From NCBI GenBank assembly GCA_902558095.1, contig CACECP010000005.1:1-64000 (forward strand): a DNA stretch of 64,000 nt, in the 5' to 3' direction. Made by a program: the position numbers and the translations under genes. Origin of the DNA: an uncultured SAR86 cluster bacterium. Its GTDB lineage: Bacteria; Pseudomonadota; Gammaproteobacteria; Magnimaribacterales; D2472. The notes under the pieces are model-generated. The model ran no database searches and was not told the DNA's origin. It saw nothing but the letters and a program-made list of their open reading frames with translations. Shown in pieces: positions 44,738 to 49,201 of this stretch; position 1 is the stretch's first letter; the number at the start of each line of letters is the position of its first letter.

Positions 44738-45892
44738 TTAGTTTGAATTAGTGTCTAAATAAGTCTTCGTTTTTAGTATCGCATTTTCATGTATGTCCAT
44801 ATAAAAAAGAGCGAAGTCCAAGCCATGATAATTTCCTGAAGAACCTCCAAATCCTTGAAATCTAGTTCCTGTTTGATCAGATGCGAATAAGATTCCATTT
44901 TTACACTGTGCTTGAACATATTCCTTGATTGGAGTCTCTAAAGGACCAAATATTTCTCCTTTGGCGGCATCATCTCCTCTTAACTCCAGTGAATAATTTC
45001 CTGATATATAAACAGCTCCCTTTGAATCAGATATATCAGATAATGTGCCTTCATTCTTCCAGGTAATAGGATTAACACAAATATTATTCTTATATCTAGG
45101 CATATCCTTATTAATAAGCGTCACATTCATCGTATCCCAATGAACTAAACAACCTAATTCTGTTGGGCCATCACATATATAGATATCATTCATTTTATTC
45201 ATCCAAGATTTAGAAATCTCGCCTCCAATGATATAAGCTCCAACCATTCTAGGGTATAAATTTGTTCCATCAATTTCCTCAGCAAGCAATCTAATGGAAT
45301 GATGTGTGCCCTGACTATGACTAGCAATAATAAATGGCCTTCCATTACTATAATTTTTAATAAAGTACTCAAATGCTTTTTTTACATCTTGATATACAAA
45401 TGCATGAATTTCCTCACGCAATTCATCAGTATCATAATAGCTATATATTGATGCTTGACGATAATATGGTGCATAAATACTACAACAACCATTAAAAGCG
45501 CTAGCTTGATTTGCCATCATCCATTTTGTGTTTTCTTTTGTTGCAGAATCCTTTTCAAGAGGATCAGTCCAATGATGTCCTTTTAGATATCCTGTAGGAT
45601 GAACAAAAAATACATCCACCTCTGAGTTTAGTTGGTCAACTCCAGTTTTCCCAGTAGGGATTAAATCTGCTGCATCTTCTTTGACAGGGAGTGCTGCCCA
45701 AGAACTTTCTTTTGAATAATCAAGCTGTTGTGCAGCATCTTTTGGGTTAAAAGAATGGTCTGGTCGGCCGATAAAATAATCATATGCCATTGCAAAAGTA
45801 AGGCCTTCATGACGAAGTTCTTTAATATACGGTAATGCCCATACAAGAATTACTACAAAAAGAAAGACTAAAATCAGAAAAGCTTTTTTCAT
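44738..45892 (-). CDS. DUF3089 (lipase-like alpha/beta hydrolase) protein, membrane-anchored
   Basis: ORF track uses GTG 45898 inside the guaA-end repeat; ATG 45890-45892 gives MKKAFLILVFLFVVILVWALPYIK. DVFFVHPTGYLKG, YAPYYRQAS, IASHSQGTHHSIRLL. Confidence 0.75.
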   Translation of the reverse strand: MKKAFLILVFLFVVILVWALPYIKELRHEGLTFAMAYDYFIGRPDHSFNPKDAAQQLDYSKESSWAALPVKEDAADLIPTGKTGVDQLNSEVDVFFVHPTGYLKGHHWTDPLEKDSATKENTKWMMANQASAFNGCCSIYAPYYRQASIYSYYDTDELREEIHAFVYQDVKKAFEYFIKNYSNGRPFIIASHSQGTHHSIRLLAEEIDGTNLYPRMVGAYIIGGEISKSWMNKMNDIYICDGPTELGCLVHWDTMNVTLINKDMPRYKNNICVNPITWKNEGTLSDISDSKGAVYISGNYSLELRGDDAAKGEIFGPLETPIKEYVQAQCKNGILFASDQTGTRFQGFGGSSGNYHGLDFALFYMDIHENAILKTKTYLDTNSN

Positions 45893-45910
45893 TCCCACTC
45901 AATAGTTGCA
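45889..45910 (-). repeat. Duplicate copy of the guaA 3' end (TGCAACTATTGAGTGGGAATGA), putative attachment-site copy (copy C)
   Basis: Reverse complement of 45889-45910 encodes A-T-I-E-W-E-stop in the guaA frame; 21/22 identical to 47636-47657, the sole difference being GAG to GAA. Confidence 0.85.
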
Positions 45911-45988
45911 CAAAACACCACCTCTGAAACCCTTACTGTGACTGTATTTCCGAGTGCCATTTTGTGTTTTTGCCACTTTGTCAAAGTT

Positions 45989-46477
45989 TTATAAGTATAC
46001 ATCTTCGATTTCCTTAAATTGTTTACTATTTAATATCTTTATTATTAAACTCCTGAATTCAGGTTGTGAATAAATGCTATGCCTTTTATCTATTATTGAA
46101 AAACCATTTATTTTTTCAGTATCTAAAAGTAATTCTTTAAAAATTTTAAGTGCTCTCTTCTGCTCATCTTTTTTTAAACCAATTTTTTCAACCTCAGCAG
46201 GAATCCACCCTACATGATCTGCTCCGCAGAATTCATACTCATGCCATTTACCATAATGTAATATTTCTATAATTTTTACTTGTCGTTCTAAAGTCGTGAA
46301 TAAAAAACTTTTATCATGATTTGACCTGTCATAAACATCATCACACTCTAAGTTAACTGATTCACCATCTTTATCATGCAGACCACAACAAACCTTTAAA
46401 TATTTTTCAGAATCTTTTATAACTTCTATGCCATGAAAATCTCTTAATGGTGGCAATTGATCTTTAGTTTGTTTCAA
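45989..46477 (-). CDS. Hypothetical protein (orphan ORF in guaA-adjacent segment)
   Basis: 162 aa ORF; stop codon immediately adjoins the AAAACTTTGACAAA repeat. Confidence 0.5.
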   Translation of the reverse strand: MKQTKDQLPPLRDFHGIEVIKDSEKYLKVCCGLHDKDGESVNLECDDVYDRSNHDKSFLFTTLERQVKIIEILHYGKWHEYEFCGADHVGWIPAEVEKIGLKKDEQKRALKIFKELLLDTEKINGFSIIDKRHSIYSQPEFRSLIIKILNSKQFKEIEDVYL

Positions 46478-46483
46478 AATAAT

Positions 46484-46906
46484 CTATTCTCTTGTTATGC
46501 TACATTGAGAATTAAATTTTGTTATTTCATTTTTATAGTTAAGATTAGTCCATTCCATTAGCATAGTTTTTTTGTTAAGAACTGCGGAATAAGTTTCATA
46601 TCGACCAGAATCTGAATAGGATGGCGAATGCGTGCCTTGCAGAAAGATTTTATCAGGAGTTTCCTCTGCAATTACTGCGTAATGATATGGTATTGGATAT
46701 TCAGAATATAAGAAATATATATACCATCGTGATGGCAAGTCTGGATTATATATATAAGGATTTTCTATAGTTCCATCCCTTTTTTGAATCCCAAAATATC
46801 CATTAAAACCAGAATCATGTTTGCAATGATAGTATGAACTACCCAATTTATACTCAGCAGCACTTAACGATGCTGAAAATATAAAAATAATAAATAAAAA
46901 TCTCAT
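46484..46906 (-). CDS. Hypothetical exported protein (orphan ORF)
   Basis: 140 aa with signal peptide MRFLFIIFIFSASLSAAEYK; two pairs of Cys candidates. Confidence 0.5.
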   Translation of the reverse strand: MRFLFIIFIFSASLSAAEYKLGSSYYHCKHDSGFNGYFGIQKRDGTIENPYIYNPDLPSRWYIYFLYSEYPIPYHYAVIAEETPDKIFLQGTHSPSYSDSGRYETYSAVLNKKTMLMEWTNLNYKNEITKFNSQCSITRE

Positions 46907-46914
46907 TAATGTAT

Positions 46915-46965
46915 TATGCCATTAACTTATGACTTTCAATAGTTGCAGGAATTTGTCAAAGTTTT
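46915..46965 (-). repeat. Interspersed ~51-bp repeat copy A
   Basis: tatgccattaacttatgactttcaatagttgcaggaatttgtcaaagtttt; about 45/51 identical to 47503-47553; contains 14-mer tcaatagttgcagg identical to the guaA end (47646-47659). Confidence 0.85.
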
Positions 46966-47477
46966 ATTTCTTTTAATTTCTGAATAAATGAATTTAAAAA
47001 TTCTGCTGTCATTGTTTGTGACATATTTCCTGCCTTGGCACGAAATTTAATATCGCCTTTATCATTGTTATAAGTTTTCACTTCAAAACCATCAATAGTT
47101 GCATAAGTTACTTCATAATTTTCCAATGTTGTAATATCTTTAGTCACATTAGATATATATTCTAATGCTGCAATAAGATCATTTATTTCCTTTTGATAAA
47201 CAAAAGATCTACCATTTTCTCCTTTATAATTTTGGACTGTCAATACAATTCCTTTTGTATTTACAGAAGAACCTGGAGTTTCTATGATTCTTTTTTGTAT
47301 AAAAATACCATAACGTGGATATGCAGGATCTGTTTGAACATTACCCAAATCGGTATAACCCAAGATTGTGATAGTGCCTGTTGACTCAGATAATTTCTCA
47401 AGTTCAGTTTTTTCTTGTGCTAAAGAAAAATTTGTAACAAAAATAGTACATAAAACAACAAACAATTTAAATTTCAT
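46956..47477 (-). CDS. Hypothetical exported protein (orphan ORF)
   Basis: 173 aa with signal peptide MKFKLFVVLCTIFVTNFSLAQ; its stop TGA lies inside repeat copy A. Confidence 0.5.
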   Translation of the reverse strand: MKFKLFVVLCTIFVTNFSLAQEKTELEKLSESTGTITILGYTDLGNVQTDPAYPRYGIFIQKRIIETPGSSVNTKGIVLTVQNYKGENGRSFVYQKEINDLIAALEYISNVTKDITTLENYEVTYATIDGFEVKTYNNDKGDIKFRAKAGNMSQTMTAEFLNSFIQKLKEIKL

Positions 47478-47502
47478 AATAACTCCTATTTAGAGATTAA
47501 AG

Positions 47503-47553
47503 TATGCCATAAACTTATGAATGTCTATAATTGCATGAATTTGTCAAAGTTTT
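47503..47553 (-). repeat. Interspersed ~51-bp repeat copy B
   Basis: tatgccataaacttatgaatgtctataattgcatgaatttgtcaaagtttt; imperfect direct repeat of 46915-46965. Confidence 0.85.
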
Positions 47554-47577: not shown

Positions 47578-47598
47578 GTTTGACAAACTTTGTCAAAC
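47578..47598. repeat. 21-bp perfect palindrome GTTTGACAAA-C-TTTGTCAAAC
   Basis: 10-bp arms with 1-nt centre; the arms share TTTGACAAA/TTTGTCAAA with the interspersed repeats. Confidence 0.8.
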
Positions 47599-47600
47599 GA

Positions 47601-47623
47601 AAACCCTTTAAGAATAAGGGTTT
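47601..47623 (-). terminator. Probable intrinsic terminator of guaA
   Basis: Minus strand AAACCCTTATTCTTAAAGGGTTT followed by T-rich TTTCG, immediately downstream of the guaA stop. Confidence 0.65.
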
Positions 47624-47635
47624 CAGAGATATTTT

Positions 47636-49201
47636 TCACTCCCACTCAATAGTTGCAGGTGGTTTACTTGAAATATCATAAACAACTCTACTAACTTCCT
47701 CTATTTCATTAACAATACGGTTTGAAACACCTTCAAGAAATTCATATGGTAAATGCGCCCATCTAGCTGTCATAAAATCTACTGTTTCAACAGCTCTTAA
47801 AGCAACAACTTCTGCATATCTTCTTTCATCTCCTACAACACCAACTGATTTAACTGGAAGAAGTACTGCAAATGCCTGACTTACTTTGTCGTATAAATCT
47901 GCTTTAATAAGTTCTTGAATAAAAATATGGTCAGCCTCTTGGAGAACTTTTGTTTTTTCTTTTGTAATCTCTCCAATAATTCTTACACCTAAGCCTGGAC
48001 CAGGGAATGGATGTCTTTCTAACATTTCTTTGGGAATTCCAAGCTCTACTCCCATTCTTCTAACCTCATCCTTGAAAAGATCTCTTAGAGGTTCAACCAA
48101 ATCTAATTTCATCTCTTCAGGTAATCCACCTACATTGTGATGAGACTTTATTACTCTTGCTTCTTTTGATTCTGAGCCAGATGATTCAATTACATCTGGA
48201 TAAATTGTTCCTTGTGCTAAAAAATTAATATCTTTTAATTTAATTGCCTCAGCATCAAAAACATCAATAAAGGTTCTTCCGATAATTTTTCTTTTTTGCT
48301 CTGGGTCATCTATATCTTTTAAATGTCTTAAAAAAATTTCTGCGCTATCAGATTTAATAACATTCAGATTCATATTTTCTTTAAAGGTTTGCATAACTTG
48401 ATCTGCCTCACCCTTTCTAAGTAAACCATTATCTACAAAAACACATGTTAGTTTTTTACCGATAGCTTTATGAAGAAGGGTTGCTGTTACAGAAGAATCC
48501 ACACCGCCAGATAAACCTAATAAAACTTTTTTATCTTGAACTTGATCTTTAATTTCCTCTATTCTTTGTGATATTAAATCGTCCATTTTCCAATCAGTAC
48601 TTGCGTTGCAAATATTAAAAATAAAATTTTCTAAAATTTTCTTTCCATTATCTGTATGGGTTACTTCTGGATGAAATTGGATAGCATAAATTGGCAGACT
48701 TTTGTGCTCCATTGCTGCAATAGGAGCTGTTTTGGTTGATGCAACTAGATTGAATTCATCCGGTAAATCTTGGACCTGATCTCCATGACTCATCCAAACA
48801 TTAATTTTTTTATCTAAGTTTTTAAACATTAAAGATTCGCTTACAACCTCTAATTCAGAGTGGCCAAATTCTTTTTGATCAACAGATATAACATGACCAC
48901 CCATTTGTTCAGCAAGAGTCTGCATCCCATAACATATTCCAAGGATAGGTATTCCTATATCAAATACAAACTGAGGAACTCTAGGTGTATAGGTTTCTGT
49001 GACTGAATTAGGTCCTCCTGAGAGAATTATTCCTTTAGGGTTAAGTTCAGCTATCTTTGATTCATCTATGTCCCACGGCAAAATTTCAGAATAGACATGA
49101 CTCTCTCTTATTCTTCTTGCAATTAATTGTGTATATTGAGAGCCAAAATCCAATACCAGAATTGTATCTATTTTTTTATTGCTAATAGATAGCTTGCTCA
49201 T
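47636..49201 (-). CDS. guaA: GMP synthase (glutamine-hydrolysing)
   Basis: 521 aa; [54 protein letters not shown]-terminal KPPATIEWE. Confidence 0.97.

Follow-up and report, generated by a model that had tools for sequence, protein, structure and literature searches.

What is recombined behind the guaA gene of a SAR86 genome, where small ORFs alternate with short repeats matching the end of guaA, and what moves the genes in between? SAR86 is an abundant surface-ocean group with genomes of about 1 Mb. A 2013 report called it resistant to cultivation (PMC3569297). The stretch analysed here (the window) is 64,000 nucleotides long and belongs to contig C5 of a 1.09-Mb SAR86 genome, whose relatives are named SAR86; several of them bear AG- sample codes and were taken as single-cell genomes. 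The initial annotation had described an array in which ~51-bp units separate single small ORFs, and had read it as a possible cassette or serial-insertion system at the guaA 3' end, with sites that match guaA and are not attC-like. Serial insertion, the cassette-like character and the nature of the sites are retained below; the 51-bp unit as the recombination site is not.

The repeats themselves were found as described. The two 51-nt copies are 88% identical over 51 nt, and a genome-wide search returned no further copy (E = 1e-12 for the second of the two). The 14-nt match to the guaA end, CCTGCAACTATTGA, is present, as is the AAAACTTTGACAAA half, at 45976-45990, and the three ORFs of 173, 140 and 162 aa have the positions first given, with the stop of the 173-aa ORF inside a repeat. 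Repeats do not part single ORFs throughout, since the second stretch holds two of them (140 and 162 aa). The guaA end itself, at 47632-47657, recurs at 45885-45910 with 25 of 26 nucleotides identical, and the recombining sequence shared with guaA would be the core ...ATTGAGTGGGA. Features are collected in Table 1.

Table 1. Features of the window element and its flanks (positions in the window).
Feature	Position	Strand	Remark
guaA (GMP synthase), host target gene	47636..49201	-	ORF; insertions at 3' end
Left core TGCAACTATTGAGTGGGA, attL core	47640..47657	-	last guaA codons; core repeats order-wide
Inverted repeat AACCCTT..AAAGGGTT	47600..47624	-	just inside left end; possible terminator
Left arm-site pair GTTTGACAAAGTTTGTCAAAC, type A	47578..47598	-	same pair in G008, G013, G029
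51-nt repeat copy 1	47503..47553	-	inner edge of left end; 122-124 bp after core in relatives
Cargo ORF, 173 aa	46956..47477	-	no family match
51-nt repeat copy 2	46915..46965	-	displaced inner edge of left end; read as fusion scar at AAAACTTTGACAAA
Cargo ORF, 140 aa	46484..46906	-	no family match
Cargo ORF, 162 aa	45989..46477	-	no Pfam match
Type-A right end: arm AAAACTTTGACAAAG, GGCACTCGGAAAYACAGTC, inverted repeat, GTGGTGTTTTG	45911..45990	-	pattern in 15/204 genomes
Right core TGCAACTATTGAGTGGGA, attR core	45893..45910	-	18 bp, same orientation as left core
DUF3089 gene	44738..45898	-	likely ATG start inside right core

The core-to-core interval of the window measures 1.75 kb and holds three small ORFs and no integrase. 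It is flanked by direct repeats of the chromosomal attachment core, as a non-autonomous integrative element would be, and none of its ORFs is a recombinase. Apart from a marginal PHROG score, the three ORFs had no match to a known family; packaging or phage-interference genes, as a phage satellite (PICI, PLE or VEIME) would have, were looked for among them, and no phage family matched clearly. Because its ATG start probably lies in the right core, the DUF3089 gene probably adjoined guaA before the insertion. The left inverted repeat pairs with an inverted copy at 45922-45959; a consensus terminator scan found none, though the left stem folds.

Does the core recur behind guaA in other genomes? 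Orthologues of guaA were found in 150 of 204 SAR86-order genomes, and the DNA downstream of guaA was collected from 96 of the order's genomes (1.16 Mb) and scanned for the core with at most 2 mismatches. Extra cores were 92 on the guaA strand versus 3 on the other strand, and at least one was present at 57 of the 96 loci, up to four at some. Core-to-core intervals (n = 103, a set that also takes in further core-bearing fragments and a SAR92 locus) had a median of 1.28 kb, and their ORFs run mostly in the guaA direction (139 versus 40). A chance origin of the repeats is ruled out by this survey together with the 51-nt matches. Cargo comprises FkbM and other methyltransferases, acyltransferases, flavodoxin-like proteins, hydrolase proteins, proteins of restriction-modification and methylase type, MORN proteins and many unknowns; part of it, for instance the flavodoxin gene, may consist of old guaA neighbours rather than cassettes. 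At 55 of 203 cores, no more than about 12 nt separate the core from the start of an ORF that begins with ATG.

Some loci depart from this simple arrangement. Two cores lie 52 bp apart at L104 (genome G149). At L057 (G001), the guaA frame matches residues 1-490 only and then diverges, with TTACACG arms and another core ~100 bp further on; here the end of guaA seems to have been replaced by the insertion. At L189 and L190 (G448), partial guaA copies follow guaA at ~10-kb spacing.

Right ends share a common order: a pair of ~10-bp direct repeats (the arms), a GAAACCC..GGGTTTC-like inverted repeat, then the core. Arms fall into types: A, that of the window (TTTGACAAA), B (TGACACA), C (TTACAAA), D (ATACAAA) and E (TTGTAAA), with further types that include TTGTAAACT, CTACACA and TTACACG. 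Of 95 right ends, 55 had tandem arm pairs; the background was 1 in 350 for cassette interiors and 1 in 830 for chromosomal windows. Since the motifs had been chosen on sight of these very right ends, the 55/95 figure is in-sample, and the information lies in the background and in the spacing. The pair lies 43-44 bp (22 cases), 53-55 bp (32 cases) or 58 bp (1 case) from the core, in classes about one helical turn apart. No recognisable pair was seen in the other 40 right ends, and some cassettes, such as the 576-bp unit considered below, have arms on one side only. Arm sequences recur at the two ends of an interval: 375 8-mers were shared between left ends and the right ends belonging to them, against 145 ± 20 after shuffling (maximum 221 in 2000 shuffles). 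By its sequence, this layout is that of a tyrosine-integrase attachment site.

Two side observations concern the ends. One small ORF (95-100% identical) is found with two right-end types, one at L131, L156 and L170 and the other at L056 and L153, so that ends are exchangeable around a single gene. At L135 and L159, a 2.57-kb cassette has a tRNA-like stretch, GGTCGGAGGTTCGAGTCCCCCCGAGCCC, at its right end, and the stem and core follow immediately.

Where does this leave the 51-bp unit? That it is itself the recombination site of a true cassette system, new ORFs entering at 51-bp sites, is what the window alone would suggest, with ORF stops and starts abutting the unit and two copies flanking the 173-aa ORF. 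Relatives give another picture. In them the unit is fixed within the left end, as a promoter-like and core-like motif 122-124 bp from the core (143-145 bp in two), just 5' of the first gene and not between cassettes. The guaA core is what delimits a cassette, and the displaced copy occurs in the window only. We consider entry at 51-bp sites very improbable, and take the unit as the inner edge of the left attachment end, the guaA core being the sequence that recombines. Copy 1 of the window holds a third arm site, a core-like CTATTGA copy and a promoter-like ATGGCATA; a sigma-70 consensus scan of the inner left end scored no better than shuffles, so that a promoter there is suggested solely by conservation.

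The copy at 46915 is the only genuine-looking displaced one found, two weaker displaced matches, in L040 and L120, being devoid of arm context. It starts exactly at AAAACTTTGACAAA, which also starts the type-A right end. Judging from these junctions, it is probably a deletion scar that fuses two adjacent type-A cassettes; in the simplest history, a right end, a core and left arms would have been lost by recombination at the AAAACTTTGACAAA arm. The window would then probably represent two fused elements, and not a functional three-cassette array. The left end of L093 shows a comparable loss between arms. The repeat could also have been a REP-like or promoter element scattered over the genome, an option raised in the initial annotation. 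It is not, because the type-A right end is almost confined to DNA downstream of guaA: the 15 genomes that have it carry it mostly on the guaA contig, and two matches lie at contig ends.

A strain comparison had been proposed from the outset, and it revealed that the genes found between guaA and the conserved flank vary among relatives, and that near-identical cassettes recur in distant genomes. A 576-bp core-to-core unit with one ORF (571 bp from core start to core start) shows 0, 1 and 0 differences in G109, G122 and G173, which belong to three genera and two families (f1 and f3); the guaA ends of these genomes are 70-75% identical, and their downstream flanks are unrelated (24-34%). In G062, which belongs to a third family (f2), the ORF part of the unit matches over 456 bp without a difference. 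Families f1 and f2 also share a 2.56-kb unit, at 98% identity. Another transfer concerns a ~2.4-kb cassette encoding an EcoRI-type methyltransferase and an HNH protein, which lies behind guaA in SAR86 G010 and in SAR92 AG-916-D20 and is 97% identical over 2301 bp, versus 68% at the nucleotide level for the two guaA genes. NCBI taxonomy places SAR92 in the Porticoccaceae and SAR86 in Gammaproteobacteria incertae sedis. Non-autonomous elements of this kind thus have precise boundaries and have spread horizontally, as seen with the 576-bp unit and the SAR86/SAR92 cassette. At L056, the host form of guaA, ATAGAATGGGAG, is kept left of TGGGA, which places the exchange in or next to TGGGA.

Such a distribution could also arise by homologous recombination between cells, guaA and a conserved downstream gene serving as anchors and the cores being fossils of old insertions. 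The rarity of integrases in these genomes and the conservation of guaA would fit. Yet identity between shared cassettes ends at the core, next to guaA genes that are 70-75% identical and flanks that are unrelated; the transfer between SAR86 and SAR92 took place despite a 68% identity of guaA, and the spacing of the arms is fixed. This makes anchored homologous recombination a very improbable source of the arrays.

Which integrase could act on these sites? Of the two PF00589 proteins that the window genome encodes, one was examined; XerC gave it its best score, and it stayed far below the integron-integrase cut-off. Two PF00589 hits at most were found in 46 of the 57 array genomes, and the three that were checked are XerC/XerD, but many genomes are incomplete, so absences of integrases could be assembly gaps. 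A direct scan detected a 438-aa tyrosine integrase in G051, in the 5.5-kb first element behind guaA; this element also encodes a serine resolvase, and it has ATACAAACTTCATACAAACT arms on either side. Within SAR86, homologues of this integrase were found in G167 (37% identity) and G034 (28%), with one weak match elsewhere. Both homologous genes start within about 250 bp of the guaA end, and Arg265, Arg380 and Tyr412 are common to the three proteins. At two of the three SAR86 guaA integrases (L163 and L213), a serine resolvase gene follows directly. In a class-wide sample, the same integrase family was met directly behind guaA in G262 and G466; a second, weaker match in G262 is not behind guaA. 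The G051 integrase matched no solved structure at E 0.01, and tblastn with the G167 integrase gave no phage or plasmid match.

The left end of the G167 element ties integrases to cassettes. Over 157 bp, it is 95.5% identical to the left end of a cassette in G050 (L159_2758) that lacks an integrase and has a methyltransferase-like ORF in its place; with the left ends of cassettes carrying acyltransferases, identity is 86-88%. Integrase and cargo genes therefore occupy the same slot behind the same end. Integrase-bearing elements whose ends match cassettes have arms of types D and E. No integrase with type-A arms was found in the 204 SAR86-order genomes, the phage and plasmid collections or the viral contigs; element end sequences matched nothing among viral contigs, phages and plasmids, where absence is not proof. 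A looser arm pattern did match three viral contigs devoid of the core, which were judged unrelated. Neither cores nor arm pairs were found near the Arm-DNA-bind_3 integrases of 12 SAR86 genomes or near the extra integrases of G015 and G017. Away from guaA, the islands at L098 and L097 have an integrase of ~410-420 aa, an integrase-like protein of 190-205 aa and shared neighbours.

A mobile integron or CALIN, the sites being attC relatives on which an integron integrase acts, would also give one-gene cassettes mostly in one orientation, in a tandem array with no local integrase, and the type-A right end does fold better than shuffles as single-stranded DNA (z -2.6). The RYYYAAC..GTTRRRY pair, however, is present in none of the 95 right ends (3 of 830 in the chromosome), and the end with TTGTAAACT arms at L131 folds no better than shuffles, which together rule out an attC identity. 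Since in addition the ends bear arm sites, and integrases with matching ends sit behind guaA, we give integron-type recombination almost no credit.

It is thus very probable that the guaA 3' end is an attachment site for small elements, mostly nonautonomous cassettes moved in trans by guaA-specific integrases. In full elements, a gene for a tyrosine integrase would lie immediately within the left end. The window copy and the majority of the others are without this gene; instead of it, or elsewhere between such ends, they have a single other gene or a few. The integrase would come from a full element, either in the same genome or in a passing one, and would recombine the guaA core with the element core, so that cassettes insert serially and the guaA end is restored each time. 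Action in trans is the most likely mode, considering the matching ends and the precedent of GIsul2 described below; excision products were not seen. The DNA comparisons themselves show the repeated cores, the arms paired at constant distances, the sharp boundaries, the exchange of cassettes among genera, families and orders, the full elements of types D and E with ends like those of cassettes, and a window genome with no integrase apart from Xer-type proteins.

Beyond SAR86, short tandem copies of the core were also met behind guaA in a few other Gammaproteobacteria of the class-wide sample. The site is therefore not peculiar to SAR86, which is its heaviest user among the groups sampled. Some of these copies hold ORFs that look toxin-antitoxin- or defence-like by eye, and CATGGTATTTTTCATGGTAT is found at several right ends. 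The data suggest that guaA is a shared gene-swapping site that reaches other bacterial orders too. A wider view, to which we would give slightly less than an even chance, is that guaA is a platform of integron-like gene exchange across marine Gammaproteobacteria, in which single genes travel as free cassettes of ~0.5-3 kb, guaA-specific integrases of several families, encoded by no more than a few percent of genomes, recruit them to guaA, and stop-start coupling to guaA serves the expression of many cassettes. On a 3,002-bp contig of a SAR86 MAG (L093), a type-A element whose left arms are partly deleted has neighbouring genes that do not look chromosomal; one of them is an ORF with a QHFHVLL motif, similar by eye to an HUH replication protein. 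This contig may be a small plasmid or a virus that bears a cassette.

A fixed entry site for cassettes, with a code of core and arms, would explain part of the strain-level gene turnover of SAR86. Such a code would permit cassette limits to be set exactly, the integrase class to be predicted from the arms, and transfers between families and orders to be tracked. The guaA cassettes would also be a simple natural case of single genes that are mobile without an integrase. In the open-licence literature we found no account of SAR86 guaA cassettes, which is weak evidence of novelty.

How do these cassettes compare with known systems? CIMEs are integrase-less elements flanked by attL and attR and stacked at the 3' end of a gene; they are decayed ICEs that move together with a neighbouring ICE. 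The term (cis-mobilizable element) and that of tandem accretion at ICE/IME sites are found in PMC7563491 and PMC5704250. SAR86 cassettes share the two flanks, the lack of integrase and the stacking, whereas their arrays mostly have no such neighbour, and they look like products in their own right. Integron cassettes and CALINs are likewise small, promiscuous, in tandem and mostly in one orientation, with the integrase elsewhere (PMC11389934), but SAR86 cassettes have neither attC nor IntI, and their sites consist of a protein-gene core with arms. The tycheposons and VEIMEs of marine bacteria are also mobile islands of streamlined hosts, with tyrosine recombinases and cargo turnover; tycheposons are described at tRNA genes, with a size of 4-200 kb and their own recombinase (PMC11389934, PMC10872708), whereas SAR86 elements lie at guaA, are much shorter and are mostly without recombinase. 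The window element does not combine a tRNA gene with a tyrosine recombinase of its own. For Shigella and E. coli, a GIsul2 integrase is described that both excises and integrates CR2-sul2, a unit without an integrase of its own, at the guaA 3' end (PMC9376610). GIsul2 is an island of roughly 15 kb with its own integrase beside the unit, whereas SAR86 cassettes are mostly of 0.3-3 kb, have several arm types and reside mostly in genomes without a non-Xer integrase. The two systems have in common the guaA 3' end as target and, with three att cores in GIsul2/CR2-sul2, cores in tandem; and CR2-sul2, like the SAR86 cassettes, is an integrase-less unit, one that is moved by the integrase of a neighbouring element (PMC9376610).
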